From NCBI RefSeq assembly GCF_041529975.1, contig NZ_CP168030.1, positions 2,294,001-2,358,000 on the forward strand: a DNA stretch of 64,000 nucleotides, in the 5' to 3' direction. The DNA is from Microbacterium maritypicum (GTDB lineage: Bacteria; Actinomycetota; Actinomycetes; Actinomycetales; Microbacteriaceae). Made by a program: the position numbers and the translations under genes. Position 1 is the stretch's first letter. Every line of letters starts with the position of its first letter. The notes beneath the pieces were generated by a model, which saw nothing but the letters and a program-made list of their open reading frames with translations, was not told the origin of the DNA and made no database searches. Below, in pieces: positions 26,431 to 49,089 of the stretch.

Positions 26431-26437
26431 ATTTGGT
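26431..26437 (+). repeat. attL core, left copy of ATTTGGT
   Basis: A seven-base direct repeat shared with 48995-49001. The flanking bases differ (G before and C after here; T before and G after on the right), so identity is exactly seven bases, as usual for serine-recombinase junctions. Host sequence lies to the left. Confidence 0.75.
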
Positions 26438-26804
26438 CTTTCGGTCGCAACGATCGAAGCGGTCAAAAACGCGCCAGAACAAGCCGATCCAGCGGGCGCG
26501 GCAGCTCCGCGAGGAAGAAGTCGACGCTCTCGAGGAAAGATTCCGCGAGCTGGGTCATCTCACGAACGCCGCTTGCGAGTTTGGCATCACACGCATGACT
26601 GCGGCAAAGCTGCTGGGCGAGCGCGGCATCGACACGTCTCGAAGACGGATGTCCGCATCTGACATGAAGCTCGCCACAGACGCGTATCTCGCTGGGGACT
26701 CCGCCGCAGGCATCGGCAAGCGCCTTGGATTCGCGCCCCACACTGTCATCAAGACCCTACGTGCGGCGGGTGTCCTGATCCGACCGCGGCCGGGGCGCGC
26801 CTAG
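26436..26804 (+). CDS. orphan 3' segment of the serine recombinase gene (double helix-turn-helix tail)
   Basis: 122 codons with no convincing start of its own, beginning at the att core. It encodes a basic linker ('RSQRSKRSKTRQNK') then two helix-turn-helix units: 'LTNAACEFGITRMTAAKLLGE' like in abbreviated form 'AACEFGITRMTAAKLL', and 'AGIGKRLGFAPHTVIKTL'. Such tails are typical of resolvase-type recombinases and bind DNA. The frame is in phase with the recombinase gene when the element ends are joined, giving a 678-residue protein. In the integrated state the frame stays open leftward into host sequence to 26310, so a chance fusion product is possible but unlikely to be expressed. Confidence 0.8.
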   Translation, partial: VFRSQRSKRSKTRQNKPIQRARQLREEEVDALEERFRELGHLTNAACEFGITRMTAAKLLGERGIDTSRRRMSASDMKLATDAYLAGDSAAGIGKRLGFAPHTVIKTLRAAGVLIRPRPGRA

Positions 26805-26969
26805 GCTGATCGACTGCTGCCGAGTGCGACCTGCTCGGCGGGGAGCGAATGACAACTGCGTGATCCCTGTTGCCAGGCTGCCCCTCCTGGCCGGTGACGG
26901 GCTGCTGAAGTGGTCCGTAATGGTGAGGCGCGGCATTGGATGGTCCACGACGAGCTCAACTTGGACTGG

Positions 26970-28763
26970 TCAACCATGAACGGTTAGGTCGAGGACCTCT
27001 GCCTCGTCTGGCGCAGCTTCAATTGTCGTCTGTGCGGCTTCCAGGTACGCCGATACTCGATCTAGAAGGTCAATAGCAGGTGATGATTCGTAAGTGCGCT
27101 GGTCAATGACTGACCGCAGCCAGTCCGCCTTGTTGCCCTGTGGCACTTCCGGGTGAAGACGCTCGAGCTCTCCTTGCTCCACAATGAAAACGCCGTGCCG
27201 CTCAAGGTGATTCGCAAGTCCACGGTACGCAGTAAGCGCATCGCCTGAGAGTAGGGCGGAGCCCGAATTCTTCAGATCTTTCCACCCTGATTTCGGGGCT
27301 GCAGCTTCCTGAATCTTCCGCGCGTCGCCCTTCGAAAGGTGGATTGAGGCGGATCGGTCGAAGACCTCTGTGATCTCGGCTCGAACTACACTTCGCTTGA
27401 GAACTTGAGAGCGAGACTGGACAGCAGACACGACAGTGTTGCGTAGCGGGATGAGCGCTGAGGCGTCTGCGCCAGCAGACTCCACGAGCGCATTGAACTC
27501 GTGGTCGTTCTGCAAGATATCGATATCGAAGATTGCAGCAACTGGGACGGCGGTGGCTGCGAAGGCCTTGATGGCGCGTGCAATTCGAGCTTTGCCGCCA
27601 GCGTGCGTGAAGTGTGCTTCTCGTACATACGTGAGGGCTTGCTGGCTCGGAAGGTCGAGTACGGCACGGTAGTACGTGCAATCGGAGTCTGCTTCGCAGA
27701 GAACCACACCCGTCGAGAAAAGACCGTTCAGCATGTCATAGTGCTTGATCAGCGGATCCTCGTACAGCTCCGATACGGCCGTGGCCGGCAACTGAGCAAT
27801 GTGATTTTGAGTGCCATCCCGAGTCAGCCGAGCGATGGAGATTTTTCCCGAAGCAGCAGGCGTCGACGTGAGGCCTGCGATGATGTCCTCACTGTGAGTG
27901 GCGACCACCACCTGCACGCCGTTCGCAGAGGTTGCATAGCTTGCAAGGAACTGACCAAACATTCGCGCCTGCGGTGGGTGCAAGAAGGCTTCTGGCTCGT
28001 CGATCAAAACGAGCGGAGACCGTCCGGTGAGGACAGAGAGGGTCATCCCTACAAAGGCACGCATGCCATCACCCTGATCTGAGAGCAGGGGCAGCGCGTT
28101 GAGCTCGGCCATGTACTCCGGTGGCTGCGGGCTGATGCCTTCCGCGATTGTGACGCTCCCTGAGTGCAAGTGGATCTGGCTTCCTGCGTAGCGGTTGACC
28201 GTGACGCCCACCTTGAAAGCAGCTTTCGTAAGCTCGGCTATTTGGGCTTCGAGTTCACGCTTCGCATACAGAACTTGCAGCGGCCCCGTAGGCTGCTCCC
28301 GATAAAGATCGAAAGAGCTAGTGCTGCCAGTCAGACCGAGTCGTTGTTCGGCGTTCAGGTAAGTCGCGAAGTACTGCCCCAGTCCGTTGAGCCCGCCGTC
28401 TGTTCGCCCCCACCAGTGAGTGATCTGGGTCGGCGTCAGAACGCCACCGTTCGAAAGTCGGAAATGCTCTTCGGTGAAGTGACCGTCGTTGTACTGCCCT
28501 GGTGCACGACGCGGGAATAGTAGTCCGAGCTCCTCGACCTGATCCTGCACAGTTCCTGAAAAATCGAGTTCAATTCGGCCGACGACCTTCCAGGGGCGGC
28601 CCGTCCAAGACGATGAGTCCGAGATGATGCGCTCGTGCAGCTCGCGGAGCAGCGAACTCTTTCCGGTGTTATTCGGGCCAACTATGGCTGTAACACCGGA
28701 GGCTACGTCGACGGCGTCGCCCGACGTGAGCGTGATCTGCTTGAGTTGAATAAGTCTTGCCAT
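26970..28763 (-). CDS. OLD-like AAA ATPase with TOPRIM-like C-terminus
   Basis: A 597-residue protein. The ATPase has Walker A 'GPNNTGKSS' (residues 29-37), Walker B 'LVLIDEPEAFLHPPQ' and the H-loop 'VVATHSEDII'. The C-terminal half contains 'VVLCEADSDCTYY' and 'AIFDIDIL', consistent with the E...DxD metal site of TOPRIM nucleases, followed by about 170 residues I cannot place. OLD-type and PARIS-like defence ATPases share this layout; I cannot choose between them. It lies 70 bases after the GIY-YIG gene and has its own possible -10, CATAAT (complement of 28774-28779), just upstream, so it may be a separate unit. The 165 bases after it hold nothing I recognise. Confidence 0.8.
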   Translation of the reverse strand: MARLIQLKQITLTSGDAVDVASGVTAIVGPNNTGKSSLLRELHERIISDSSSWTGRPWKVVGRIELDFSGTVQDQVEELGLLFPRRAPGQYNDGHFTEEHFRLSNGGVLTPTQITHWWGRTDGGLNGLGQYFATYLNAEQRLGLTGSTSSFDLYREQPTGPLQVLYAKRELEAQIAELTKAAFKVGVTVNRYAGSQIHLHSGSVTIAEGISPQPPEYMAELNALPLLSDQGDGMRAFVGMTLSVLTGRSPLVLIDEPEAFLHPPQARMFGQFLASYATSANGVQVVVATHSEDIIAGLTSTPAASGKISIARLTRDGTQNHIAQLPATAVSELYEDPLIKHYDMLNGLFSTGVVLCEADSDCTYYRAVLDLPSQQALTYVREAHFTHAGGKARIARAIKAFAATAVPVAAIFDIDILQNDHEFNALVESAGADASALIPLRNTVVSAVQSRSQVLKRSVVRAEITEVFDRSASIHLSKGDARKIQEAAAPKSGWKDLKNSGSALLSGDALTAYRGLANHLERHGVFIVEQGELERLHPEVPQGNKADWLRSVIDQRTYESSPAIDLLDRVSAYLEAAQTTIEAAPDEAEVLDLTVHG

Positions 28764-28833
28764 CGTGACCTGATTATGACAGGAGACACCGACACGCCAA
28801 GCGCGACCTTGTTCCGTAGGCCCGTATCAGCGC

Positions 28834-29673
28834 CTAGTTTCGGTTCAGGCCATGCCGCCTCGAGTCCAGCGCGACCTTGAAATGACTCTCGGCGATATCG
28901 ATCGCTGACGTCGGTGTCGACGGGTCGAAAACGCGCAGGAGCGAGTACCGAAAACTTGACGGGTCCAGCGCTCGCAGCTCAACGTTGCCGCCATGCCCGT
29001 TGGTCGCATACGCAGTCCATCGTTGACGGATGTTTTCCTCGCCGTCCGCCTTGCCAACGTAGTGCCGACCATCGCGGGTGTCCGTAACGAGGTAGATGCC
29101 AACGACTGAGGAAAGTGCCGTTCGCCACGACGCATAACGATGCTCGCGCATGACGGCCACGAGCTGCGGATAACTGAGGACGAGGCGGTCGAAGCCAGGA
29201 AACGGGATTGGTTCCGCGTCGGCGATACCGAGGACCGGGTAGGTAGCTGCAGTCGTTCCGCGCAGTTTCCAACTTCGCGGTGCTCGCCAACCGATCACTA
29301 GGCGTCGCTGCAGATCAGCCAGATGGTCGGTCTTACCGATCTCGAACACCCGAAGCACGCCGTCGTTAGACATCTCACCAAAGTTCTCCACGACACCCCA
29401 GAATCGTGCCTGGTTGCCGCCCTCGGGAATGAACACAACCCAGTAGCGCGGCGGAAGCGTTGGGAAACTTGTCCTCTTGGAGGACTGGCGACGCGTGTAC
29501 TCGATGATCTCCGCGTCCGTCGAGTCCGCATGGATTCCGCGGAGGCCAGTATCCGTGTGTTCTTCGATATAGACGTGACGGATCACCAATACTTCGGCGA
29601 GGTCAAGCCCGGCATCGAGAAGGATGGGGCTCAGAGTCAATCCCATATCTAAGCTTCTTCCTGACGACATCAC
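28834..29673 (-). CDS. GIY-YIG nuclease domain protein
   Basis: A 279-residue protein whose C-terminal third is a GIY-YIG nuclease: G192-I-Y, Y205-V-G, the catalytic Arg near 216-218 ('IRQRW'), Glu262 ('IAESHF') and Asn in 'GLNRN'. The N-terminal about 185 residues are not familiar and may recognise a partner or substrate. GTG 29673 overlaps the stop of the UvrD-like gene (GTGA), indicating coupling; ATG 29646, with AGGAAG upstream, is an alternative start. It follows the Gabija-like pair, of which a GIY-YIG protein is not a standard member. Confidence 0.85.
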   Translation of the reverse strand: MMSSGRSLDMGLTLSPILLDAGLDLAEVLVIRHVYIEEHTDTGLRGIHADSTDAEIIEYTRRQSSKRTSFPTLPPRYWVVFIPEGGNQARFWGVVENFGEMSNDGVLRVFEIGKTDHLADLQRRLVIGWRAPRSWKLRGTTAATYPVLGIADAEPIPFPGFDRLVLSYPQLVAVMREHRYASWRTALSSVVGIYLVTDTRDGRHYVGKADGEENIRQRWTAYATNGHGGNVELRALDPSSFRYSLLRVFDPSTPTSAIDIAESHFKVALDSRRHGLNRN

Positions 29674-31352
29674 CGGACGGCGATGGCTGCCCAGTCAGCG
29701 GAGTTGAACCACTCAACGAGCTCTTCGGCTTTTCGAGGGTTTGCCGTCGCGAGACTGGTGAGGAAGCTCGACGGCTTCCGATCCATCGGACGTCCCGCGT
29801 TAGTGGGGACGGACACCGCCCGGCTTACGATCACTCCGTGTCGCGCGCGAGACAACATAACCGAGAGAACCCGAGCTTCCTCGATCTTTTCGTCCGAACT
29901 GGTAGCCCGGAAATCCGGGATCACTCCGTCCTCAAGACCGACGATAACGACCCAGTCAAACTGCTGACCCTTGCCAACGTGTCCGGTCAGCAGATGAACT
30001 CCGGGAGCGGTTATGAGGGTCGCGGCGTCGCCGATTTGAATACGAGACCGGATGTCGCCGGCTGCCACTCCACTACGGAGAAGATCGTGACACCAGTGCA
30101 GGGCGTCGAGCAGGCTCTCGCGCCCGCTCGGCTCTGAGACCGACTCGAATCCCGCGGCGTCGCGCAGGAAGGCCATCTTGTCCGCTGCGGCTTCGTAACC
30201 ACGGACATCGAACCGCGCGAGTAGTGACTTGAGAGTACGAGCTGTCTCCGTATCGAGTACGCCATCGTCCCAGCGGAAAAACGGCACCTTTGCCGCCTTC
30301 AGCGCAGATTCCACGAACCGTCGCCTTCCCAACGTCCGCGCTATGACTCCAATACGTTGCTGAGGAACGCGCGAGACGAGAGCCTGGGCCACCCGAGTGA
30401 CCCAATCGCCCTCTGCATCTGCTGTGTGATGCCCTACAGACGCGGCGAGGCCACCACCGGGCCACGACGCAGGGTCAGCGGCGGTCAGCGGTGTTCCTGC
30501 TGTCAGCGGTGACATTGCATTGACCATCGCCAACACTGCGGGCGACGAGCGATGAGACTCGGAGAACTCAATCACCTCGGTGCACTCCGCGCGGACGGCC
30601 GCGTCGATCGCGACTGGCTTCGCTCCCGCGAATCCATAGATGCCCTGAGCGAGATCGCCAGCGTATGTCGTGTTCTTGTATCCGATGCGGTTAACGATCC
30701 GCAGCTGTTGCGGCGTGAGGTCCTGGAACTCGTCGACGATCACGCTTCCGAAGTGGGCCTGGTACAGGTCCGCCACCAGGTCGTTCGCGAGAATGAGCTC
30801 AGCCAAGCGCGGAAGGTCATCGTAGGTGAGCCGTCCCTCGGACACTCGCTGGCGTTCGATCGTGAGTGCCGCCTCTCGTCCGGGCGCGCTCAAGTACGTC
30901 AGAATCTCGTCGTCGGTGCGTGGCTCTTGCTTCGCGATCCTGAGCGTCGTCTGCACCGCCGCTGACGTACTGAAGTCGAAGCCTTTCGCGCGACACTGCG
31001 CTCCTACCCAGTCGCCGTCCGGAATCGTCATTGCAGGATCGAGCCCGATGACGTTGGCGTGCGCTTTGAATAGCCGTGCGGCCAGCCCATGGAAGTTGGT
31101 GATCGTGACTCGGTCCCGAAGCGTTCCGCTCGGAAGATAGTCCTGAAGACGTTCGCGAATGTTGTCTCGCGCACGATTCGAGAAGGTGGTCACGAGGATC
31201 TTTTGCGGTGCAACGATGTCGCCGCGCTGGAGCAAGCCCTGAATGCGGAGCGCGAGCGCTTCCGTCTTGCCGCAGCCGGCGGGTGCAATAACCAGGAGAT
31301 CACGTGCCGTGGAGTTACGAATCGCAAGTTGCGAAGCGGTTGGTTGAATCAT
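29670..31352 (-). CDS. UvrD-like DNA helicase (GajB-like)
   Basis: A 560-residue superfamily 1 helicase with full motifs: I 'APAGCGKTEAL' (residues 23-33), Ia 'TTFSNRARDNIRERL', II 'VDEFQDLTPQQ', V 'TGHVGKGQQFDWVVI' and VI 'LSVMLSRARHGV'. Its size, simple domain layout and position directly after an OLD nuclease fit GajB of the Gabija anti-phage system, where helicase and nuclease form one complex. ATG 31352 abuts the TAG stop of the preceding gene. It is coupled on the other side to the GIY-YIG gene. Confidence 0.87.
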   Translation of the reverse strand: MIQPTASQLAIRNSTARDLLVIAPAGCGKTEALALRIQGLLQRGDIVAPQKILVTTFSNRARDNIRERLQDYLPSGTLRDRVTITNFHGLAARLFKAHANVIGLDPAMTIPDGDWVGAQCRAKGFDFSTSAAVQTTLRIAKQEPRTDDEILTYLSAPGREAALTIERQRVSEGRLTYDDLPRLAELILANDLVADLYQAHFGSVIVDEFQDLTPQQLRIVNRIGYKNTTYAGDLAQGIYGFAGAKPVAIDAAVRAECTEVIEFSESHRSSPAVLAMVNAMSPLTAGTPLTAADPASWPGGGLAASVGHHTADAEGDWVTRVAQALVSRVPQQRIGVIARTLGRRRFVESALKAAKVPFFRWDDGVLDTETARTLKSLLARFDVRGYEAAADKMAFLRDAAGFESVSEPSGRESLLDALHWCHDLLRSGVAAGDIRSRIQIGDAATLITAPGVHLLTGHVGKGQQFDWVVIVGLEDGVIPDFRATSSDEKIEEARVLSVMLSRARHGVIVSRAVSVPTNAGRPMDRKPSSFLTSLATANPRKAEELVEWFNSADWAAIAVR

Positions 31353-32960
31353 CTACGGTGCGATCTCCGTCAGGAGCTCATCGACGCTTGTGATCGCAGA
31401 CGCATTCGTTTCCGTCAAGATTGGCAGTACCGAAAGAGCAGCACGAACCTTGCGCTTGTTCACGCGGCAGAACGTCGCGACGTCGCTGTCCGTGTAGGTG
31501 CCGCCAGCGCCAGTTGGGACGCAGTTTGCCATTTCGTTTGTCGAGAAGTGTCCGCCACTGAGTAGCGCAGCGTGAACGTTGGGCCCTCCGAGGGCTCTGA
31601 CGTACTCGTCTTCAAGATCGCGCTGCGACACGAAGACTGAGTTAGCCCGGAGGTCGCTGGCAGCGATGCCGAGCGCGCTGGCGATTGTCTTCTCGGCATC
31701 GAGGTCGATGAGACGAGAAACCGAGAGCTTGAAGCCCGTTGCGCCAAAGAGCTTGGCGATCGGAAGGATCTCGCTTGCACCATCGGTCTCGATGACGCTG
31801 ACTCCAAGACGGTCAAGGTTGCGGTCAGTCAAGTCCGCGACGCGCTCGAGGATGATGCGGTCTGAAAGACCCTCGACGGTGACTACTCGAGTCGCAGTAA
31901 GCGGCTCGAGTTTGTCGCGCACCCACCACTTGACGAAGGTTCGCTCGTCAGCCGCTAGGAAGCCCGCGTCCGGTTGGACGATCTTGCCGCCGGGACGAAC
32001 CACCACGATCGAGTCCGCATCGAACGCACCGACGATGTCCGACGAATGCGTTGCGAGCACTTTCTGGTTGCTGCTCGTGCGGAGGAGCCGAGCGAGACTG
32101 CGCTGGGACGTGGGGTGGAGATGGATCTCCGGCTCGTCGATGCCTACAACGTTCGCACCCGCGCTCATGAGGTCATATAGCGCGATTGCATAGAGCGCCC
32201 GCGTGCCGTCCGATTGCTGCGATAGCTCGTGCTCGACTCCGCCCTTAGAGACTCGAAGGCGGACATCACTGAGAAGATCGTCGTCGGCGGACGCGCCGCT
32301 GACGAACGATAGATCCTTCTTTCGCAGCTTCTCGGGCAAAGCCTTCGAGAGTTGGCTGGCCAGTTGCTTGCGGAGATCGCCGAGTGTACTCGACGTGTCG
32401 AGTGCCTTCTGAAAGCCCGTTGTGAGCGTATCGAAGTCTGCCTTCTCGGCACCCAGCTCGACCGCGCGGAGCATATCGTCCAGCGCGGAACGACGGTCCT
32501 CGCGAAGGTCGCGGGTCTGAGCGGTGGCGCTGAGGAACTTCCACCCGAGTCCGGCGATCTGGTCTCGCGACAGTTGTCGGCCCGTCCCCGCATGTGGTCC
32601 GATCCTTGAGATGCTGAGCGATTCGCTGGCATCAACGGATGCAATGAGCTGGAGGGTGAGGGAACGGGATTTGGTGGTCGGGTCGGTATAAATTTCATCC
32701 GCAAACAGCGCCTTCTCGTCTTTCGAGAAGTTGGAGAGCTCTACCTCAAACCTGAGTTCGTGGTCGGAGTCGCGGAAGTCGTCAGCGCTCAGGTTGCCAT
32801 AGAGCTGGGCCGTGCTTGCGCCGAGCACCAGGTCGATCGCTCGAAGGAGTGATGACTTGCCGACATCGTTAGCACCCACAAGGACGAGGTGGTCGCGAAC
32901 CTCGATCTCGGTGTCTTCGAGTCGTCGGTAATTCTCGATCTTGATGCGTGTCAGTTTCAC
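31353..32960 (-). CDS. OLD-family ATP-dependent nuclease (GajA-like)
   Basis: A 535-residue protein with ATPase and TOPRIM domains. Walker A is 'GANDVGKSS' (residues 29-37), Walker B 'VVGIDEPEIHLHP', H-loop 'VLATHSSDIV'; the TOPRIM site is 'VVTVEGLSDRIIL' plus 'RLIDLDAEK'. Together with the following UvrD-like gene this is the Gabija gene order (gajA-gajB), and the length is close to GajA (about 580). The GTG start at 32960 overlaps the hsdR stop (GTGA), tying it into the restriction operon. A different OLD nuclease family cannot be excluded without alignment. Confidence 0.85.
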   Translation of the reverse strand: MKLTRIKIENYRRLEDTEIEVRDHLVLVGANDVGKSSLLRAIDLVLGASTAQLYGNLSADDFRDSDHELRFEVELSNFSKDEKALFADEIYTDPTTKSRSLTLQLIASVDASESLSISRIGPHAGTGRQLSRDQIAGLGWKFLSATAQTRDLREDRRSALDDMLRAVELGAEKADFDTLTTGFQKALDTSSTLGDLRKQLASQLSKALPEKLRKKDLSFVSGASADDDLLSDVRLRVSKGGVEHELSQQSDGTRALYAIALYDLMSAGANVVGIDEPEIHLHPTSQRSLARLLRTSSNQKVLATHSSDIVGAFDADSIVVVRPGGKIVQPDAGFLAADERTFVKWWVRDKLEPLTATRVVTVEGLSDRIILERVADLTDRNLDRLGVSVIETDGASEILPIAKLFGATGFKLSVSRLIDLDAEKTIASALGIAASDLRANSVFVSQRDLEDEYVRALGGPNVHAALLSGGHFSTNEMANCVPTGAGGTYTDSDVATFCRVNKRKVRAALSVLPILTETNASAITSVDELLTEIAP

Positions 32961-35900
32961 AAATTGCTCCCCGTTCCGAGCCCAAAGAACCGCTCGAAGA
33001 AGCGTGTCAACGCTTCAACGACGATTCGCTTCTTTTCCCCATGGCTACCGTCGGGCGCGAACCGGGAGACCGGTCGCAGAATCTTCATGATGGCGGTGCC
33101 ACTCGTACGGAACTGGCCGTCACGGAACGCGGCGTCGATGAAGGCGCGCGTCTCATCGGGACGAAGTTTCTGATCCGCGATTAGGCTCTCAAGCTCAGCC
33201 TCGCGCTTGGCGGCCACGAACGCTTGCCATTGCTCGTCGACAGCACCGGTGACGGATACCGAGTCGACGAAGTCCTCGACAAGGTCGCGTTTGCTGCGCA
33301 GGCTCGGACTAGCGTCGACCGCGCGCGCGATCTCGGCGCGGATCTCTTTGTCATCGCCGTCGCCGAAGCTGGCGCGGTATTTCTCCACGAGCATCAAGAT
33401 GTAGTCGACGTTGATCTCGACCTGCTTGATCAGCTCGATTTCGAACACGACATCGTCGTTGATGAGTTCCTTGTCGGAGTCGCGGTCACGCCGGAACTCG
33501 GCATAGAAGTCGAGGTAAAGGCTGCGGTAGTCCTGGGCCTGGCGTTCGCTCAGGGGGTCTTGACCCTCGAAATCATCGAACGAGGTCAGGATGTTTTGAA
33601 GCCGGAGGATGGCACCAAACAGCGCGATGAAATCCTTCTGTGCTTCTTCGCCGACGATCTGGTGGCCGAGCGGGAAGCGTTGCAGAAGGTGAACGACCTT
33701 CTCGGCGTAGTCGGCGTAGTAATCCTGGTACGGCTTCAGGAGCACGACGCCGCGCGCGTCCTTGTTGCCGAAGAGCTCGAGAGCGGCGTTGGTCGCATCT
33801 TCGAGGTTCCGGAACGAGACGATGTTGCCGTACGTCTTGACGGAGTTCAGGATGCGGTTGGTACGGGAGTACGCCTGGATGAGCCCATGTGAGCGGAGAT
33901 TCTTGTCGACGAACAGCGTGTTCATAGTTGTCGCGTCGAAGCCCGTCAGGAACATGTTGACCACGATGACAAGGTCGATCTCGCGGTTCTTCATCCGCTG
34001 CGACAGGTCCTTGTAGTAGTTCTGGAACTTGTCGGCACTGGTGTCGTAGCTCGTGCCGAAGTAGCCGTTGTAATCCTTGATCGCGGATTCGAGGAACTCG
34101 CGAGCGTCGCCGCTGAGGCCCTCGGTGTCGAACGCCTCGTCGTCAAGAATGTCGTCGACCGGGGCGTCATTCGCGCCGTAAGAAAAGATGACGCCAACCT
34201 TCAGGCGACGATCCGGCGTCAGCTCCTTCTGCTGAGACTTGAACTCGAGGTAGTAGCGCTGCGCGGCCTCGATGGATGCCGTCGCGAAGATGGCGTTGAA
34301 GCCGCGAACACGCTTCTTCTCCCGGAGCGCCTCTGCTCGTTGGCGCGTCCGAACAGACTCCGTGACGTTCGTGACAACGGAGTGCTCATAGCTCGAAGCT
34401 CGTCGTGTCTTCTGGTCGAAGTGTTCCAGCGTGTACTCAACGATTTGGGCTAGGCGCCGGGAGTCGAGGAGGGCCTTCTCAGCCTCAACACCGGATACCT
34501 GCTTGTCATCCGGCGAACCGACCTTGACCGTGTTGATGTAGTCGATCCGGAACGGCAGCACGTTCTTGTCCGTGATCGCGTCGACGATTGTGTAGGTGTG
34601 CAGCTTGTCGCCGAACGCCTGCTCCGTGGTCTTGAGCTGCGGGTTACCCCCTGATCCGGAGTTCGCGGCGAAGATCGGGGTGCCGGTGAATCCGAAGAGG
34701 TTGTAACGCTTGAAGGCGCGGGTGATGTCGGTGTGCATGTCACCGAACTGTGAGCGGTGGCACTCGTCGAAGATGATCACGACGTGGCCCGAGTAGATCT
34801 CATGGCCCTTGTTAGCACGAATGAAGTTCGAGAGCTTTTGGATCGTCGTGATGATGATGCGGGCATTCGAGTCTTCGAGTTGCTTCTTCAGTACTGCCGT
34901 CGAGGCGTTCGAGTTCGCGGCCCCCTTCTCGAATCGGTCGTACTCGCGCATCGTCTGGTAGTCGAGATCCTTACGGTCAACGACGAACAGCACCTTGTCG
35001 ACGCTGGAAAGTTTCGAGGCGAGCTGCGCCGTCTTGAACGAGGTGAGGGTCTTACCCGAACCCGTGGTGTGCCAGACATAGCCGCCGGCCTCGACTGTGC
35101 CGAGGCGCTTGTAGTTCGTCGCGATGTCGATGCGTTGAAGGATCCGCTCAGTCGCGACGATCTGGTACGGACGCATGACCAGCAAGTCGCGGTCGACGGT
35201 GAGCACGCAGTACTTCGTCAGGATGTTCAGCAGCGCGTGCTTCGCGAAGAACGTCTTCACGAACGCGGTGAGCTCCTGAATCGGCCGGTTCTGGGCATCA
35301 GCCCACCATGACGTGAACTCGAAGCTATTGCTGGTCTTCTTCTTGCTGCCCGAGGTCTTCTTACCCTCATCGATGTGACGGTTGCGCGTCGTGTTGGAGT
35401 AGTACTTGGTCAGCGTGCCGTTGCTGATCACGAAGAGCTGGACGTACTCGAAGAGACCCGAGCCAGCCCAGAAGCTGTTGCGCTGATAACGGTTGATCTG
35501 ATTGAACGCCTCACGGATGTCGACGCCGCGGCGCTTGAGCTCGACATGCACCATCGGCAGGCCGTTCACGAGCACCGTCACGTCATACCGGTTGGCGTGC
35601 TTCGCACCGTCGTCGTTCTGCCCGATCTCGTACTGGTTGATCACCTGCAGGCGGTTGTTGTGAATGTTCTTCTTGTCGATGAGCATCACGTTCTTTGTCG
35701 AACCGTCATCGCGCGTCAGGATTTGAACGTGATCCTCCTGGACGCGGACCGTCTTCTCGACGATGCCGTCGTTCTGGCTCGCGACCTTATTCTTGAAGAA
35801 GTGTTCCCACTCCGCGTCGCTGAACACGATGCCGTTGAGCGCTTCAAGCTGGGTGCGCAGGTTCGCGACGAGCTGCGCCTCCGTGGTGATCGGAAGATAC

Positions 35901-36061
35901 TCGTACGCCTGCGACTGCAGCAGGCGGATCATCTCGCGCTCGAGATCCGCCTCCGACTGATATGCCGCCGCCTGAGCAGAGTCGGGGACATACTCAGCAA
36001 CGACCGTGCTCTCGGCAGAGACGGCGATCGGGTCGTACTTGCGTGGAGACAAGTCGCTCAT
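32957..36061 (-). CDS. hsdR: type I restriction endonuclease subunit R
   Basis: A 1034-residue motor and nuclease subunit that translocates and cuts unmodified DNA. The N-terminal PD-(D/E)xK nuclease is seen as 'NRYDVTVLV' and 'HVELKRRG'. The helicase has Walker A 'HTTGSGKTLTS', the DEAD-box variant 'IIFDECHRSQFG', and 'GFTGTPIF'. The C-terminal part binds the methylase complex. ATG 36061 overlaps the stop of the PrrC-like gene (ATGA at 36058-36061), preferred over an ATG five codons upstream. The stop overlaps the next gene. Confidence 0.95.
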   Translation of the reverse strand: MSDLSPRKYDPIAVSAESTVVAEYVPDSAQAAAYQSEADLEREMIRLLQSQAYEYLPITTEAQLVANLRTQLEALNGIVFSDAEWEHFFKNKVASQNDGIVEKTVRVQEDHVQILTRDDGSTKNVMLIDKKNIHNNRLQVINQYEIGQNDDGAKHANRYDVTVLVNGLPMVHVELKRRGVDIREAFNQINRYQRNSFWAGSGLFEYVQLFVISNGTLTKYYSNTTRNRHIDEGKKTSGSKKKTSNSFEFTSWWADAQNRPIQELTAFVKTFFAKHALLNILTKYCVLTVDRDLLVMRPYQIVATERILQRIDIATNYKRLGTVEAGGYVWHTTGSGKTLTSFKTAQLASKLSSVDKVLFVVDRKDLDYQTMREYDRFEKGAANSNASTAVLKKQLEDSNARIIITTIQKLSNFIRANKGHEIYSGHVVIIFDECHRSQFGDMHTDITRAFKRYNLFGFTGTPIFAANSGSGGNPQLKTTEQAFGDKLHTYTIVDAITDKNVLPFRIDYINTVKVGSPDDKQVSGVEAEKALLDSRRLAQIVEYTLEHFDQKTRRASSYEHSVVTNVTESVRTRQRAEALREKKRVRGFNAIFATASIEAAQRYYLEFKSQQKELTPDRRLKVGVIFSYGANDAPVDDILDDEAFDTEGLSGDAREFLESAIKDYNGYFGTSYDTSADKFQNYYKDLSQRMKNREIDLVIVVNMFLTGFDATTMNTLFVDKNLRSHGLIQAYSRTNRILNSVKTYGNIVSFRNLEDATNAALELFGNKDARGVVLLKPYQDYYADYAEKVVHLLQRFPLGHQIVGEEAQKDFIALFGAILRLQNILTSFDDFEGQDPLSERQAQDYRSLYLDFYAEFRRDRDSDKELINDDVVFEIELIKQVEINVDYILMLVEKYRASFGDGDDKEIRAEIARAVDASPSLRSKRDLVEDFVDSVSVTGAVDEQWQAFVAAKREAELESLIADQKLRPDETRAFIDAAFRDGQFRTSGTAIMKILRPVSRFAPDGSHGEKKRIVVEALTRFFERFFGLGTGSNL

Positions 36062-37125
36062 GCCCCGGCCGCCCATCTGAAAGCCTTCAAAAACTCTTCA
36101 AACTCGGTCTTGAATGCTTCTTTGTATTCGTCGGCGACATTAGTAGCATCGATATCAGCGAATCGGTCGTGACTGTACAAATTAAGAACCTTCGTAACGA
36201 GCGCGGCATTCGGGCCGATCAGCAACTCGCCCCAGCCGCCTGTGTGTCCGAGGAAGTTCGCCGTCTTTTCGAGCAGAGCTCTAAACTGGTTAAAGTGGGC
36301 TCGCTCGATCGCGTTCGCCGAGATTGCCCCCTGAACGTCCTTCACGATACCCAAGTGATAACTAAAAGGAGAGTCTTTCGGCTGATTGTTAAGCATCCAT
36401 CCGTCGACCGTTCCTTTCGTAAGAGCATACGCTCGGTCACTTTTACGGCGGAGCGAATTGAAAAGAACATTAAAAAAGAGAGCGTGGTGTGTGGTGATAA
36501 CGAATCTCAAGTTGATCGCTGACGCTCGTTTGACAAGGTTCGACAACGCAAGTGCCACTGATATGATACGAACATCATCCATGGACGACACGGGATCGTC
36601 TATGACTGCAAGCGTCAGCTGGTCATAGCTATCCGTGGATCGCAGATCTGGGCTATCACTGAGCGTTTCAATCGCCTCACTCAATACCGAGTAGTAGACG
36701 CTCCAAACAAATATGCTTTCCTCGGCCCGAGATATCTTGATGTCATCTGTCGAGCCGTCGTCACCGGTGTGTATGCCGAAACTAATCTCGCCGTTCTCGA
36801 AGTCGATTCTCGGTTCAATTCTGCCGCTCGTGAAAAACTGGAAGTTGTCGACGATTGCGCTGTCAAGACCTTGAGTCACGATAGTTTCCAGCAACTCTGA
36901 TCCTGGGTTCATTTTGAGCACGACGCGATCGTTGTCCCAGGTAAATGCGTCCTCGACGAAAGAGTTGTAGAGAACTACCCCGTCCGGGTCGCGGTTCTTT
37001 AGGTGCTGAGCTAGTCGAGTCTTACCAATTGTGTTCGGGGCGTAGATCAATGCGCTTCGCGATTCGGCAAGCCCCTGTATTACCTCGTCAGCCAAGCTCG
37101 CGACCGTCTCATGCGGCTCCGTCAT
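36058..37125 (-). CDS. PrrC-like anticodon nuclease (predicted)
   Basis: A 355-residue protein between hsdS and hsdR, the place of prrC in E. coli prr. It has a P-loop 'APNTIGKTRL' (29-38) and Walker B 'VIDDPVSSMDD' (174-184), the ABC/AAA_13 form of PrrC and RloC. The C-terminal part holds R282-x3-E286 and H319 ('NLYSHD'); the spacing (4 and 37) is close to the R320/E324/H356 triad of E. coli PrrC (4 and 36). PrrC cleaves the tRNA-Lys anticodon loop when phage disable the restriction enzyme. It is somewhat short for the family (about 396). ATG 37125 abuts the hsdS TAG. Its sequence is noticeably AT-rich. Confidence 0.78.
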   Translation of the reverse strand: MTEPHETVASLADEVIQGLAESRSALIYAPNTIGKTRLAQHLKNRDPDGVVLYNSFVEDAFTWDNDRVVLKMNPGSELLETIVTQGLDSAIVDNFQFFTSGRIEPRIDFENGEISFGIHTGDDGSTDDIKISRAEESIFVWSVYYSVLSEAIETLSDSPDLRSTDSYDQLTLAVIDDPVSSMDDVRIISVALALSNLVKRASAINLRFVITTHHALFFNVLFNSLRRKSDRAYALTKGTVDGWMLNNQPKDSPFSYHLGIVKDVQGAISANAIERAHFNQFRALLEKTANFLGHTGGWGELLIGPNAALVTKVLNLYSHDRFADIDATNVADEYKEAFKTEFEEFLKAFRWAAGA

Positions 37126-38253
37126 CTAGACCGCCTCCTTGAAGGTAAGCAGCTTGTCGCGGTAGTACTTGTACTGTTTGCGACGCGCAGCAAGCTCAGC
37201 GGGAAGACCGACCTCTGGATCGTTGACGAGTTTATCGAACTTGTCGAGTTCCGCCGCAATCCGATGTTGGCGCTCCAAAGCCGGAACTGCAACCTGGTAC
37301 TTCAGAAACATCGGTCGACGTAGGGACGTTACCGATGCATGTACCGAGGTACGCTCCAGATAGCGACCGAAGTCAGCAATCAAGTAGTGATAGAGGTAGC
37401 GTGCATCCACGCGCGAATTGGGCACAATTCGATATGCGCGCTGGTGGAGCGCGTACTGGCCCGACGCGAAATGGAAGACCTTCCCTACACCAACGCCGTC
37501 ACCCGCAGTGATAATGGCGTTCTCATTGAAATCAAACGAATCGAGCCTGAGTGGTTCGCGCCCTCGCGCGTAGAAGACGTACTCGCCGTCCACCACAGCA
37601 TCCTTGGTGTCATGGCTTCCAGTACCGATGACAGCCAAATCTGCAAGCGAGACGCGATCGATAGTGTCATCGAATTCCAAAGCCTCGGTTCGGTAGTGGT
37701 CATACTGGCGGTGCCGGGCCTCCAGCTCCGCCTCTAGCTCCGCCTCCAGCTCCGTGAAGCCGTCCAATACTCTAACGATCTCGCGCTGAACTTCCGTGGG
37801 AGGAACTGGGATTTGAAGATTATCGGTGTCCTTCACGCTCAGCTGTGGAAGTTTTACTGAGGTTGCACGTGCCAGAGACTGGAGCTTCTCGACCTGCGTT
37901 AGGAGATAGTAGTAGACGAATTTCTGATCGACTTCCGATTCGTTGATCGAGTACGACCAGAGTTCACTCTTGTGCGTGAATGGGCGATCGTAGTATGTGA
38001 AACCGATATGTCCACGTGACTTCACGATGATGCTCGGGACTCGAACCACATCCTTCGGCGGAATCGCGTCCTCGGCGACATCAGCAACGGTCTGACCACC
38101 AGCGAAGACTCGGATGGGGCCGCGACTGCCAAGTGTCTTCATCTTCGAGGCGGTGATGGCAGTGCCTTTGTTCCGCTTTCCGAGAGATCCGAGCGGGCGT
38201 CGAGCGACCCCTTCCGGGCAGAGCTCTTGAAGCAGTTTATCGATGCGACTCAC
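37126..38253 (-). CDS. hsdS: type I restriction specificity subunit S
   Basis: A 375-residue subunit that recognises the bipartite target. Two target-recognition domains are separated by conserved helices: 'QREIVRVLDGFTELEAELEAELEARHRQYDHYR' region (in part 'VLDGFTELEAELEAELEA', near 150) and 'RIAAELDKFDKLVND' near 335. The first spacer contains the repeated unit ELEA several times, encoded by repeated DNA around 37722-37755, a known place where repeat-number change alters the target gap. The GTG start overlaps the hsdM stop (GTGA). Confidence 0.93.
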   Translation of the reverse strand: MSRIDKLLQELCPEGVARRPLGSLGKRNKGTAITASKMKTLGSRGPIRVFAGGQTVADVAEDAIPPKDVVRVPSIIVKSRGHIGFTYYDRPFTHKSELWSYSINESEVDQKFVYYYLLTQVEKLQSLARATSVKLPQLSVKDTDNLQIPVPPTEVQREIVRVLDGFTELEAELEAELEARHRQYDHYRTEALEFDDTIDRVSLADLAVIGTGSHDTKDAVVDGEYVFYARGREPLRLDSFDFNENAIITAGDGVGVGKVFHFASGQYALHQRAYRIVPNSRVDARYLYHYLIADFGRYLERTSVHASVTSLRRPMFLKYQVAVPALERQHRIAAELDKFDKLVNDPEVGLPAELAARRKQYKYYRDKLLTFKEAV

Positions 38254-39818
38254 TCGGAGTCCTCCAGATTCGCCACCATGTCATCGATCGAAGTGCGGAG
38301 TTCCACCTGGCGCGCCACGATCTGTGCGATCTCGGCGTTCAATGCCGTGATGTCGACGACCTCGCGTGTGTCTTCCTGCTCAACGTAGGAAGACACCGCG
38401 ATGTTGTAGCCGTTGGCAGCGATGTCCGCGTTCGAGACCAGTGTGGAGTAGTGCACTTCCTCGACGCGCTCATCAAGGGTCGTCAAGACGTTCTGCTGGT
38501 GCTCAGGCGTCAGCTTGTTCTTGTTGCCGACGCGCTTGAACTCGGACGAGGCATCGAGGAACAGCACGGAGTTGTCCGTCTTGGACTTCTTGAGCACGAT
38601 GATGCACGTCGCGATAGTCGTGCCGAAGAACAGATCGGCCGGGAGCTGGATGACGGCATCGACGTAGTTGTTGTCGATGAGGTACTGACGGATCTTTTGC
38701 TCCGCCCCTCCGCGGTATAGCACTCCCGGGAACTCAACGATGGCAGCCGTGCCGTTGACCGCCAGCCAGCTGAGGATGTGCATGGTGAAGGCGAGGTCGG
38801 CTTTCGACTTTGGTGCGAGCACTCCGGCCGGCGCGAAGCGCTCATCGTTAATCAGGAGTGGGTTCGCATCTCCATCCCACTTGATTGAGTACGGGGGGTT
38901 GGAGACGATCGCCTCGAACGGCTCGTCATCCCAGTGCGCCGGGTCGAGGAGCGTGTCGCCGTGTGCGAGATTGAACTTCTCGTAGTTGATGTCATGCAGG
39001 AACATGTTGATGCGCGCAAGGTTGTACGTCGTCAGGTTGATCTCCTGACCATAGAAGCCTTCCCGGACGTTCTCCTTGCCGAGTACCTTCGCGAACTTCA
39101 ACAGCAGCGAGCCCGAGCCAGCGGCCGGGTCGTAAACCTTGTTGACCGAGGTCTTGCCGAGGACGGTGATCCGAGCCAACAGCTCAGAGACTTCCTGTGG
39201 CGTGTAGTACTCGCCGCCAGACTTTCCGGCATTGGCTGCATACATCTGCATGAGGTACTCGTAGGCATCGCCGAACAGGTCGATCGAGTTGTCCTGAAGA
39301 TCGCCGAGAGGAAGATCACCGATGGCGTCCAGGAGCTTCACGAGCTTCTCATTGCGCTTCGGCACCGTGGCGCCGAGCTTGTTGCTGTTGACGTCGAGGT
39401 CGTCGAAGAGTCCCTTGACGTCGTTCTCACTGTCCGTTCCGAGTGCCGAGGCCTCGATGTTCTTGAAGACCCGCTCTAGCGTCTCGTTGAGGTTCTCGTC
39501 GGAGGCGGCGCGGGCACGCACGTTCGCGAAGAGCTCGGAAGGGACGATATAGAAGCCCTTTTCGGCCACGGTCTCGCTGCGACCGAACTCGGCTGCAACA
39601 TCGGGGAGCAGGGCGTAGTCGAACTCGGTGTCGCCGGCCGCGCGCTCACCCATGTTGATGTACGCCGCCAGGTTCTCAGAGATGAACCGATAGAAGAGCA
39701 TGCCGAGCACATAAGACTTGAAGTCCCAGCCATCGACAGATCCACGTAGATCGTTCGCGATCCGCCAGATCGTCTTGTGCAGCTCGGCGCGCTGGCCTTC
39801 TTTAGTGGTCGGTGCCAT
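38250..39818 (-). CDS. hsdM: type I restriction-modification DNA methyltransferase subunit M
   Basis: A 522-residue N6-adenine methyltransferase. Motif I is 'VYDPAAGSGSLLLK' and motif IV 'SNPPYS'; the N-terminal HsdM domain reads 'LHKTIWRIANDLRGSVDGWD'. ATG 39818 has GGAG seven bases upstream, so I reject a start 35 codons further out. It is the first gene of the operon and lies about 146 bases after the predicted transcription start, with an inverted repeat in that leader. Confidence 0.95.
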   Translation of the reverse strand: MAPTTKEGQRAELHKTIWRIANDLRGSVDGWDFKSYVLGMLFYRFISENLAAYINMGERAAGDTEFDYALLPDVAAEFGRSETVAEKGFYIVPSELFANVRARAASDENLNETLERVFKNIEASALGTDSENDVKGLFDDLDVNSNKLGATVPKRNEKLVKLLDAIGDLPLGDLQDNSIDLFGDAYEYLMQMYAANAGKSGGEYYTPQEVSELLARITVLGKTSVNKVYDPAAGSGSLLLKFAKVLGKENVREGFYGQEINLTTYNLARINMFLHDINYEKFNLAHGDTLLDPAHWDDEPFEAIVSNPPYSIKWDGDANPLLINDERFAPAGVLAPKSKADLAFTMHILSWLAVNGTAAIVEFPGVLYRGGAEQKIRQYLIDNNYVDAVIQLPADLFFGTTIATCIIVLKKSKTDNSVLFLDASSEFKRVGNKNKLTPEHQQNVLTTLDERVEEVHYSTLVSNADIAANGYNIAVSSYVEQEDTREVVDITALNAEIAQIVARQVELRTSIDDMVANLEDSE

Positions 39819-39867
39819 TGTGTTTGTCTCCTGCGCAGCATGGCGCGATTCGTAGTAGTCACGCTCA

Positions 39868-39903
39868 CCCCCAAGGTATCGGTCGATGCCGACACCTTGG
39901 GGG
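39868..39903 (-). repeat. inverted repeat in the hsdM leader
   Basis: CCCCCAAGGT (39868-39877) and ACCTTGGGGG (39894-39903) are perfect 10-base inverted repeats separated by 16 bases. They lie 50-85 bases before the hsdM start, inside the predicted mRNA leader. It can form a strong RNA hairpin or serve as the binding site of a dimeric controller; no T-run follows, so it is not a terminator. Confidence 0.7.
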
Positions 39904-39970
39904 AGCGCCTCGGGTTTGAACATGCTGTCGGGAGCATTCGTGGCTCGAACCGGTTCAGCTTGCTGGGGTA

Positions 39971-42896: not shown

Positions 42897-42905
42897 GGGA
42901 TAGCC

Positions 42906-44458: not shown

Positions 44459-44484
44459 CAGGCCGGTAAAGAGGATGCACGAGC

Positions 44485-45022: not shown

Positions 45023-45025
45023 TGC

Positions 45026-46432: not shown

Positions 46433-46450
46433 CCCACCGATTGCCCACAA

Positions 46451-47245
46451 CTAGTTGACCGACCAGCCCTCAGGCAGATTCATTGTGTTCGGGTCCTGTC
46501 GCTCCGCCCATATAGCGCCATCGCTGACCAGCCCTTCGACCCCGCCCGGCGGGGTCTTTCGCCACCATTGCAGCGACACCTCCACGGCGCGCTCACGGAA
46601 GGTTCGCATGTGGACGGCGATACGGGGGTCGGCGGTCCACGAGAACACGCTCCAAACGGGCCAGACCGGCATGTTCCAGCCGACCCGCAGTACCGCCATG
46701 CGTTCGGCAAAGCCGACGTCGAGTTGCAGCGTGGACTCGGGTAAGACGAATCGCCTCGTGAAAACGCCTGGCATCGTCGGGTGGGGGTGGACATGGAAGT
46801 CGACGTCGATGAGTTCGTTGTCGATCTGCACGGTCGGTGGTTGCCAGGACTCTTCGCGCATGTTGAAGTCGAGCACCGGCTGGAACCGATCTCCGGATTG
46901 GAAGATCGACACGAACGCCCACGGTCGGGAGTGCTCATCCCTGTCGCGAATCAGCGTGACCAGCTCGTCAATGCCACGTTCAGATCGCCGCCATGGCGTT
47001 GATACGTCGCCCGCGTAGTGGCTGGCGACGTAGGCATTGCGGCGCTGATCCACGGAACCGAGCCCGACGCCCCAGCCTGCGAGGTAGAAGTAGGCGCCGA
47101 CGTTGGTGAGCGGGTCGAGCCCGTGGTCTCGATAGAGGACGGCGAGTTCGTCGAAGGCGCGCTCCGGGATCCCGTCCCCGAGCGCTTCGACCAAGTAGAA
47201 CAGTCCGGATATTCGGGTAACTGCGGGTTTGCCGTCGCCGCGCAT
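46451..47245 (-). CDS. island protein of unknown function
   Basis: A 264-residue soluble protein containing many Trp residues ('GWNMPVWPVWSVFSWTADPR'). The N-terminal half is helical ('ISGLFYLVEALGDGIPERAF'), the C-terminal half beta-rich. No family is recognised. ATG 47245 is chosen because the open frame upstream runs into recombinase sequence; the two genes are divergent, 86 bases apart. Confidence 0.6.
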   Translation of the reverse strand: MRGDGKPAVTRISGLFYLVEALGDGIPERAFDELAVLYRDHGLDPLTNVGAYFYLAGWGVGLGSVDQRRNAYVASHYAGDVSTPWRRSERGIDELVTLIRDRDEHSRPWAFVSIFQSGDRFQPVLDFNMREESWQPPTVQIDNELIDVDFHVHPHPTMPGVFTRRFVLPESTLQLDVGFAERMAVLRVGWNMPVWPVWSVFSWTADPRIAVHMRTFRERAVEVSLQWWRKTPPGGVEGLVSDGAIWAERQDPNTMNLPEGWSVN

Positions 47246-47331
47246 CACCGCCGCCACTGCGCCCGGTTGTCGCGATCCATGCCAGCGACACGGAGCCCAA
47301 TGCGCATGCTGTTGAGAGCAGCCCACTCGCG

Positions 47332-49089
47332 GTGCTGAGTGCCCCGGTCGGAAGTCGAGCCGTCCTGTATCTTCGCGTCTCAAGCAAGGGGCAGTTAAAC
47401 ACCGACTACGACCCAGAAGGCATCTCCATACCGGCACAACGCGTGGCCTGCGAACGAAAGGCCGAGCAACTGGGCCTGACGGTTGTCGCGGAGTTCATCG
47501 AGCCTGGTCGTAGCGCCACGGAGATGACTAAGCGCGTTGCATTCCAGCAGATGCTCGAACGCATCCGTCGCGATAAGGACGTTGACTTTGTCATCGTTCA
47601 CAAGCTGTCCCGCTTCACCCGGAACCGTCTCGACGATGCGATCGTGATGGCCGACTTGAACAAGCGCGGCGTCGAACTCATCTCCGCAACGGAACAGATC
47701 GACGCCAGCCCTGAGGGGCAGCTCATGCACGGCATCCTCGCCACCTTCAACCAATACCGATCCGCCGCGGACGGCGCGGACATCGCGTACAAGATGGGCC
47801 AGAAAGCCAAGAACGGCGGAACCCTCGGGCGAGCGCCCATCGGTTATCTCAACGCTCCCGACTTCTTCGAAGGGCGCAAGGTCAACAGCGTCATCGTCGA
47901 CCCAGAGCGCGCACCCTTCGTCCAGCTCGCCTTCGAGATGTACGCAACCGGAGAGTCGACGCTCGAAGACATCGTCAACGAATGGGATGTGCGGGGGTTC
48001 ACCACTAGGCGAACCGCGCACCATCCCGCTGGAAGCGTCGCAATCTCAACCATGGCGCGCCTCCTGCGTGACCGCTACTACATCGGTGAGACAACCTACA
48101 AGGGCGAGACGTTCAAGGGTCGGCATGAACCGATCATCGAGCGCGACCTCTTCAACAAGGTGCAGGACCTCCTTGACGCTACCGGGCACGCGGGTGAACG
48201 ACGCCGCATCTACGAGAGCTATCTCAAGGGAAGCCTCTGGTGTGGAGAATGCTATGCGGAACGCGGTGACGTGAATCGTCGCATGATCATCCAGAGGGCT
48301 GTAGGTCGCACGAAAGCGGAGTACTTCTACTTCTTCTGCCGAGGACGTCAAGAAGGCGTATGCCGTTCTCGGCACCTTCCGATCGACGATGTCGAAGACG
48401 CAGTCATCGATCACTACCGAACCATCAGACTCGCGCCCGACTTCGTCGCTGCGGTCAAGGCGGGGCTCGATGAGATCATTCGTGACCAGCAACGGGTACA
48501 GGAGGTGCTTCGGCGTGACCTCGCTAACCAACGCAACCAACTCGAAGTCAAGGCCGACAACCTCGTCGATCTCGTTGCGACCGGAGGACTTGCTTCGGCG
48601 CGAGCGGCGGCACGCATTCGTGAAATCGAAGCGGAACGCGAGATCATCACGGAGCGGCTCAAAGGAGTCGTCGACGATGTTTCGACGGGCGTTCAGAGCA
48701 TCCTCGGCTGGCTAGAGCTGTTGAAAGACCCGCACGAGCTGTACAAGAACGCAAGCAACGAAATGCGCCGCCAGCTCAATCAAGCGATCTTCACGAAGAT
48801 CTTCGTGGTCGACAACGACAGAGTCGAATCTGAACTTACGGATCCTGCTCGTGCGCTCATCGAGGCGCAGGCAGCCTGGCGCGCAGCCGTGCTCGCCGCA
48901 GAAAATAAAACAGCGATCGATGCCGACGCATCGATCGCTAGTTTCGAGGAAACATTAAATGCCAACCACTTTGTCAATGGTTGGAGTAAGAACTATTTGG
49001 TGGACCTGAGGGGACTCGAACCCCTGACCCCCTGCATGCCATGCAGGTGCGCTACCAGCTGCGCCACAGGCCCAGATGCCGCTCCGTAG
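47332..49089 (+). CDS. large serine recombinase (integrase), C-terminus replaced by antisense tRNA sequence
   Basis: 585 residues as it stands. The resolvase domain has the catalytic Ser17 ('YLRVSSKGQ') and 'KLSRFTRN'; next come the recombinase domain ('GRAPIGYLNAPDF'), a zinc ribbon ('WCGEC' with later 'FFCRG' and 'GVC') and a coiled coil near residues 375-450. Codons 1-556 lie inside the element; the last 29 ('VDLRGLEPLTPCM...') are read antisense through tRNA-Ala and 16 bases beyond it. In the excised circle the gene would instead continue into 26436-26804. The start is GTG 47332. The element's own mover; no separate excision factor is identified. Confidence 0.92.
   Translation: MLSAPVGSRAVLYLRVSSKGQLNTDYDPEGISIPAQRVACERKAEQLGLTVVAEFIEPGRSATEMTKRVAFQQMLERIRRDKDVDFVIVHKLSRFTRNRLDDAIVMADLNKRGVELISATEQIDASPEGQLMHGILATFNQYRSAADGADIAYKMGQKAKNGGTLGRAPIGYLNAPDFFEGRKVNSVIVDPERAPFVQLAFEMYATGESTLEDIVNEWDVRGFTTRRTAHHPAGSVAISTMARLLRDRYYIGETTYKGETFKGRHEPIIERDLFNKVQDLLDATGHAGERRRIYESYLKGSLWCGECYAERGDVNRRMIIQRAVGRTKAEYFYFFCRGRQEGVCRSRHLPIDDVEDAVIDHYRTIRLAPDFVAAVKAGLDEIIRDQQRVQEVLRRDLANQRNQLEVKADNLVDLVATGGLASARAAARIREIEAEREIITERLKGVVDDVSTGVQSILGWLELLKDPHELYKNASNEMRRQLNQAIFTKIFVVDNDRVESELTDPARALIEAQAAWRAAVLAAENKTAIDADASIASFEETLNANHFVNGWSKNYLVDLRGLEPLTPCMPCRCATSCATGPDAAP
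48995..49001 (+). repeat. attR core, right copy of ATTTGGT
   Basis: The right copy of the seven-base repeat. Its last four bases are the complement of the discriminator base and CCA end of tRNA-Ala, so integration keeps the mature tRNA sequence intact. Confidence 0.75.
48998..49073 (-). tRNA. tRNA-Ala (anticodon GGC)
   Basis: 76 bases on the minus strand with encoded CCA: acceptor GGGCCTG pairs with the CAGGTCC-type 3' strand (one G-T), D arm GCGCAGCTGGTAGCGC, anticodon stem CCTGC/GCAGG with loop ATGGCAT (anticodon GGC), T arm AGGGGTTCGAGTCCCCT. It decodes GCC. It is the attachment site of the island: its 3' end is now followed by recombinase sequence rather than by its terminator. Confidence 0.96.

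Follow-up and report, generated by a model that had tools for sequence, protein, structure and literature searches.

What becomes of a large serine recombinase gene when the attachment (att) site used by its own element lies inside the coding sequence? This question is raised by an island integrated at a tRNA-Ala gene of Microbacterium maritypicum. The island lies in a stretch of 64,000 nucleotides which we call the window (assembly GCF_041529975.1, contig NZ_CP168030.1, positions 2,294,001 to 2,358,000 of the forward strand; coordinates below are those of the window). Judged by sequence comparison, the integrated state splits the integrase gene at a valine codon, and relatives in the joined form exist. 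An initial annotation of this DNA had placed the att core within the gene. That observation was partly confirmed, being right in substance with a corrected junction, and its interpretation was partly supported.

The right end of the island carries the integrase gene, which runs into the tRNA:

47332-49002, plus strand: 5' piece of the large serine recombinase gene, through the core valine GTG (557 codons from GTG 47332; true start uncertain)
49003-49089, plus strand: stub on the integrated gene, antisense through tRNA-Ala (28 codons and a stop)
48998-49073, minus strand: tRNA-Ala (GGC), its 3' end being attB, the chromosomal att site (from tRNA detection and sites without the island)

Resolvase (PF00239, 9e-27), Recombinase (PF07508, 2.1e-13) and zinc ribbon (PF13408, 2.5e-5, with a score of 25.0 bits slightly below the cutoff of 25.3) were found in one chain in the frame from 47332, and by this three-domain test the window integrase belongs to the large serine recombinase class. 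All these domains remain in a single frame after integration. The frame had been described as crossing the core at the 3' end of tRNA-Ala and continuing in antisense, and it could be read so to its end: it passes TAT TTG GTG GAC, enters tRNA-Ala(GGC) antisense and stops at 49089. The nearest protein relative (P0002, 97%) is annotated as uncultured Microbacterium, and the window frame ahead of GTG 47332 (47221-47332) matches the end of this relative's N-terminal leader (ASPPPLRPVV...).

The opposite end of the island has an open frame that runs to 26804 in the same phase as the recombinase, as the initial annotation had reported, and codes for a basic linker followed by two helix-turn-helix (HTH) units of three helices each. 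The AlphaFold model of this tail had a mean predicted local distance difference test (pLDDT) value of 79.4, with 84-96 by block in residues 41-140.

26379-26804, plus strand: 3' part of the split recombinase gene, coding for the linker and the double-HTH tail (141 codons and a stop)
26511-26621, plus strand: HTH unit 1 of the tail, with three helices (residues 46-82 of the model)
26655-26765, plus strand: HTH unit 2 of the tail, with three helices (residues 94-130 of the model; HTH_38 matched weakly, E 0.014)

The position of the join was obtained from sites without the island. In genus relatives which lack it, the left flank, including a terminator-like hairpin, runs straight into the tRNA. 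Two loci of one relative (genome G398, loci L088 and L112) have the left-flank terminator ...GCGGGTTTCGTT joined directly to the tRNA GTGGACCTGAGG...; the two adjoining matches of L088 (93% over 43 bases and 89% over 121) share exactly four bases, as do those of L112 (90% over 58 bases and 100% over 35). Both copies seem to flank another element, and therefore a locus in a second relative (G411, L090), which reads ...GCGGGATTCTCTG and then GTGGACC..., is the cleaner empty site. Because the island-free sites join flank and tRNA with this four-base overlap, the core is GTGG. In protein relatives and in elements at other tRNAs, the tail is conserved from a valine codon followed by (H/R/G)LLQxYS, 19 codons left of 26431.

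49000-49003, unstranded: att core GTGG at the integrase and tRNA end (from sites without the island)
26376-26379, unstranded: att core GTGG at the tail end, replacing ATTTGGT at 26431 (from the left ends of relatives and sites without the island)
26350-26370, minus strand: terminator-like hairpin of the chromosomal tRNA transcript (by eye), which abuts attB in island-free sites

ATTTGGT at 26431, which had been proposed as the left core, is a chance 7-mer that happens to be in phase; it lies 19 codons to the right of the corrected core and is ruled out by the island-free sites and the conserved tails. A third copy of ATTTGGTGG is present at 32669-32682 inside the gene of GajA; a 7-bp core easily arises by chance.

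Joined at GTGG, the two pieces give 557 + 141 = 698 codons and a stop, uninterrupted and in frame. The join does give an uninterrupted gene, as had been claimed, with 698 codons in place of the 678 given for it. A core position that breaks the frame had been named beforehand as speaking against the idea; the core moved and the frame was kept. The claims that the core lies inside the coding sequence, and that on a circular form the recombinase would be longer and end in a DNA-binding tail, agree with this join. Integration would swap the 141-residue HTH tail for a stub encoded by the tRNA. The junction in the circle is predicted to read ...TATTTG-GTGG-GGCTCTTG..., and the exact words of attP, the att site of the element, were absent from the host assembly and from the genome contig collection.

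Integration alters the encoded 3' end of the tRNA (48995-49003) from ...TTGTGGACC, without CCA as in G398, to ...TTGGTGGACC, with CCA encoded. A different element of about 24 kb seems to be present at the same tRNA-Ala in G398 (L112 1501-1588, L088 1462-1621). Its flanks show longer repeats (terminator plus 35 tRNA bases), of the kind expected from a tyrosine integrase.

Words related to the T-loop of the tRNA were found on both sides of the core:

48980-48987, plus strand: att arm in the integrase 3' coding end, GTTGGAGT (7/8 to the reverse complement of the T-loop word)
26395-26402, plus strand: att arm in the coding start of the tail, ACTCAAAA (6/8 to the T-loop word; +17 from the core G)
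49014-49021, plus strand: tRNA T-loop word ACTCGAAC, the attB counterpart (+12 from the core G, 5 bp closer)

At the integrase 3' coding ends, a word like GTTCGAGT lies at -15 from the core G, an offset among the best in 24 of 29 ends and the sole best in 14. On the tRNA side its reverse complement ACTCGAAC, in the T-loop, lies at +12 in 24 of 29 ends, at +11 in four and at +9 in one, the reference codon being different in the last two groups. The offset +12 follows from tRNA geometry alone, and the informative offsets are -15 and +17. In left ends (n = 20) the arm word at +17 scored a mean of 4.6/8, while other offsets from +5 to +34 gave 1.4-2.85; averaged were the 20 with one in-phase best core among 22 ends with GTG or GTC, and seven ends with other codons and two out of phase were dropped. 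In the LI integrase, as given in the accessible part of its description, the zinc-ribbon motif occupies positions 16-24 of attP and 11-19 of attB, a 5-bp difference (PMC3783163). The shift from +17 on the attP side to +12 on the attB side equals this published offset. The arm word may thus be the zinc-ribbon site, and we infer that the enzyme recognises the tRNA T-loop as attB half-site and that attP imitates the T-loop. Recognition of the T-loop as a half-site would explain the varied target tRNAs and also the gene ends SSK and YSNP/YSKH, where the same bases would serve as coding sequence and as att arm.

The tails show purifying selection. The ratio of nonsynonymous to synonymous substitution rates (omega) between related tails was 0.16-0.23 in 9 informative pairs of 10 (the tenth was identical), in a set whose pairs are non-independent within groups, whose synonymous divergence exceeds 1 in two pairs, and in which one tail, that of Gulosibacter, is currently joined to a recombinase. 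Two of 33 left ends had a Shine-Dalgarno word of at least 4 bases before the first codon of the tail, no excess over the 3.6 obtained with shuffled sequence; the joined Gulosibacter gene is among the 33, and for a few of them the core position is uncertain. The earlier remark that the tail lacks a start of its own is borne out by these left ends, where neither a conserved start nor a ribosome-binding site was found. As far as the sequences tell, the tail is maintained as protein with no sign of its own translation start, and therefore the simplest account is selection via the full-length enzyme.

How widely the arrangement occurs was seen in 398 genomes of the family, 54 of which held 71 recombinase matches (E<=1e-60, at most three candidates scored per genome); a tail profile of 25 rows matched 98 genomes. 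Using the 150 listed profile matches, of a longer total, the nearest tail lay within 120 kb for 44 of the 71 recombinases, at a median distance of about 22.6 kb, and 37 of these 44 tails were upstream on the same strand (binomial p ~3e-16 against a crude null of 1/4). A count of orphan tails had been suggested at the outset, and its result is in line with the expected position. Thirty-five end pairs were then compared; they were chosen for an upstream same-strand tail (one across contig ends) and test core and phase, not polarity. For the 29 right ends with a detected tRNA, namely 28 of the 35 pairs and the window, the longest word common to both ends was unambiguous in 23, and in 19 of the 23 it had the same codon phase (p ~2e-6). 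The window itself was ambiguous, with five tied 4-base words. Where the tRNA-Pro end reads GTC, several left ends have GTC too. Recombinases with as little as about 35% identity, at several tRNA types, are accompanied by tails that match the double-HTH profile. Outside the family, 16 of 316 phylum genomes held 20 non-own recombinases. For two of these (in G723 and G672) a tail lies on the contig of the recombinase, and by eye both pairs show the expected polarity.

By a rough motif, 108 of the 120 best protein relatives (P0002-P0121) carry a word like GLEP, GFEP or RFELL after residue 500, and such words match the antisense reading of tRNA T-arms. BLASTP found the window HTH tail in none of these 120, and the tail region of the joined window protein gave nothing at E<=0.001 among 2237 candidates in the protein database. 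Phages, plasmids and IMG/VR yielded one weak HTH match for the tail, in a Caulobacter phage, and only distant recombinases for the integrase.

Naturally joined genes were present in named genomes. Scaffold 4 of Gulosibacter chungangensis has an unbroken recombinase-tail frame of 765 codons, and about 40 kb downstream of it a second integrase ends at tRNA-Lys; the 8-mer GGTGGGCC is common to the joined gene and to the tRNA-Lys junction. The locus reads as a putative tandem of an older integrase, the core, and the tail of a younger element. Further joined frames have 751 codons in Nesterenkonia ebinurensis, 727 in Leucobacter sp. wl10 and 647 in Leucobacter luti, whose tail has one HTH by eye. 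Partial joins occur in Nesterenkonia sp. PF2B19 and N. massiliensis, where only the C-terminal part of the recombinase was matched before the tail. In genome G268 a more distantly related recombinase is joined to a tail, and no tRNA was found on the 65-kb contig. On N. ebinurensis NZ_VWNF01000050 (L228, L300), two recombinase ends about 28 kb apart are joined to different tail types, which suggests that tandem insertions may exchange tails. Other candidates were rejected: long frames with tail-like matches in G390 and G161 are, by eye, TniQ or transposase-like genes and not recombinase fusions; L225, L234 and L247 gave a BLAST impression of joined genes, but each frame meets a stop within the tRNA; in L279 an orphan tail follows a frame of another kind; and only fragments are present in L240, L285, L288 and L300.

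With the Gulosibacter joined gene as query, 79 loci were obtained in named genomes. Among the 56 recombinase matches that end within 60 residues of the valine (V), 36 end at V+0 to V+2, and of the 14 tail matches with a start no more than 60 residues from it, 9 begin at V-1 or V. The antisense 3' end of a tRNA lies within 12 bases in 40 of the 47 recombinase matches ending at V-10 to V+25 (Val 13, Ala 13, Lys 7, Arg 6, Phe 1). Related unintegrated elements whose recombinase ends before the core had been listed as a possible objection; no free element was found in the searches, and among the relatives two recombinases stop before the core. One is in Rarobacter faecitabidus (L256, the same sequence as IMG/VR L221), where the recombinase stops just before the core and another frame continues to the valine, apparently a frameshifted copy; the other (L281) has its stop shortly before the core, near a contig end. 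In L256 an orphan tail lies about 7.6 kb upstream of the recombinase, and in the fetched stretch of L221, found as an IMG/VR relative of the Gulosibacter gene, neither tail nor tRNA was present.

From these observations we propose the following course. The island is taken to be an integrating element that has attP within its large serine recombinase gene, in the 3' part. Its excised circle would make a full enzyme of about 698 residues with the double-HTH tail, and this tailed enzyme would recombine attP with attB at the 3' end of a tRNA gene, which would cut the integrase gene at the valine codon. The integrated copy would then make an enzyme with all domains which ends in the tRNA-encoded stub and lacks the HTH tail. 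The tail is most likely needed for integration or strongly favours it, and it may act, for example, through extra DNA contacts or by holding the enzyme near its own attP. The resident integrase would become an inert or excision-biased short form, and a later tandem insertion would give the older integrase a tail again. We lean towards the view that integration changes the integrase in this manner and would confine integration to the circular form, with a resident enzyme that is inert or biased to excision. A bolder version is offered tentatively, and we rather doubt it as a whole: the tailed enzyme would integrate and the stub-ended one excise or be inert, making a directionality switch without a separate factor in which each reaction rewrites its own gene, while T-loop-like arms would allow many tRNA targets and tandem insertions would re-arm older integrases.

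Several observations weigh against the proposed course. The short form already has the ordinary domains of a large serine recombinase, and the tail could be dispensable. In 20 of the 56 cases the recombinase match does not end at V+0 to V+2: 11 run on for 6-40 residues, and 9 fall short by 6-52 residues, owing to contig ends, frameshifts, weak alignment or, in one case, the stop near a contig end described above. In the family, 21 of the 71 recombinases had no tail on the contig and six only beyond 120 kb, one of these (G359) with its tail about 84 kb away across contig ends; three tails were on the opposite strand and four downstream on the same strand, one of the four being the joined G268 gene. 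Four of the 23 unambiguous core words were out of phase. A fold search gave zero matches at E<=0.001, and the searches made turned up no free circle, plasmid or phage with the joined gene of the window. The recombinase frame of the window contains no start codon from the upstream stop to 47332, and the window integrase may begin at 47332 or have a damaged 5' end.

The main rival is that attP merely lies near the 3' end of the gene, short and long enzymes act alike, and the tail is a dispensable passenger. It draws on the Resolvase, Recombinase and zinc-ribbon domains kept by the short form; known serine integrases also function without such a tail. We still regard it as unlikely, given that orphan tails are under purifying selection, that double-HTH tails accompany recombinases of such low identity at several tRNA types, and that tail-bearing joined genes recur. 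The HTH tail could otherwise be a gene of its own that is expressed alone from the left end and acts, for example, as directionality factor or repressor; its being in frame with the integrase would then matter only in the circle. The core GTG is a possible start codon, and the database entries P0124, P0125 and P0127 begin exactly there; however, Shine-Dalgarno words are not in excess, several left ends have GTC, GCG or CCG as core codon, and in the window this codon lies directly behind the terminator-like hairpin identified by eye. These points make a separate gene quite improbable. That the tail is an unrelated open frame which happens to lie near the island end deserves hardly any credit: long open frames are common in GC-rich DNA, and the 7-bp core at 26431 was indeed a chance match, but position, polarity, phase, core, att-arm spacing and joined relatives all agree, and the joined genes in named genomes already oppose it.

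Between tail and recombinase, the island carries defence genes (Gabija GajA/GajB, type I restriction-modification, PrrC, OLD-like) in a compact minus-strand block:

26970-39923, minus strand: defence cargo, OLD-like, GajB, GajA, type I R (HsdR), PrrC, type I S (HsdS) and type I M (HsdM) (domain scans; open reading frame 28834-29673 left out)

An integrase class which splits its own gene would be present in many actinobacterial genomes, with an enzyme family and a domain logic that differ from the archaeal case described below. Self-splitting would account for the antisense-tRNA residues found at the ends of many actinobacterial recombinases in databases. It also means that tool enzymes picked from genome annotations would be cloned in the stub-ended form. 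Att sites are provided for many enzymes, and a direct test is offered of how serine integrases set direction.

The initial annotation knew no description of the mechanism for an integrase of this kind, and its novelty has to be tempered: archaeal suicidal integrases and a 2011 suggestion for dsiB precede it, and it is for the serine enzyme with an HTH tail that no description was found. This holds for split serine integrases of actinobacteria in the open-access literature, where such silence is weak evidence of absence; the accessible part of a large-scale recombinase discovery paper has nothing on tRNA or self-splitting (PMC10083194). Serine-recombinase actinomycete integrative and conjugative elements (AICEs) are likewise actinobacterial, eight of them at a tRNA-Leu gene, but their paper calls tRNA integration by serine recombinases rare and, in its accessible part, describes no split recombinase gene (PMC3218068). 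The A118/LI-type large serine integrases are alike in having the zinc-ribbon motif 5 bp nearer the centre in attB than in attP, whereas the C-terminal domain modelled for LI comprises residues 133-452, and the accessible text mentions neither a double-HTH tail nor a split gene (PMC3783163).

Integration-dependent immunity of mycobacteriophages, as far as the accessible text describes it, also has attP in a coding sequence, attB at a tRNA gene and a different product after integration, and it shares with the window the lack of an evident directionality factor; however, the split gene there is the repressor and the integrases are of the tyrosine type, while in the window the recombinase itself is split (PMC9262239). 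Closer is Dehalococcoides dsiB, which was suggested in 2011 to be fully functional only on a circle or beside an island with a 3' fragment (PMC3146451). There, too, the 3' end of a serine recombinase gene overlaps the att site and has variable ends (PMC3146451). DsiB, which we compare by its description, is CcrB-like, has the partner DsiA and uses the tmRNA gene ssrA, whereas the window family is found at tRNA genes; the accessible part of the paper describes no tail fragment, joined gene or att arms (PMC3146451).

The nearest parallel in principle is given by the SSV-type archaeal 'suicidal' tyrosine integrases, as presented in the accessible part of a review: the att site lies inside the integrase gene, the gene is split on integration, and the intact gene is needed for excision (PMC8371274). 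The review also treats chimeric genes between integrated copies, and several truncated suicidal forms were inactive in vitro (PMC8371274). The window enzyme shares the att core within the integrase gene and the split on integration. Unlike them, it is a bacterial serine recombinase and not an archaeal tyrosine recombinase; in the suicidal enzymes the catalytic C-terminal part is split from the N-terminal part, whereas in the window only the C-terminal HTH tail is lost. The window integrase works like a suicidal integrase but is not a member of that group.

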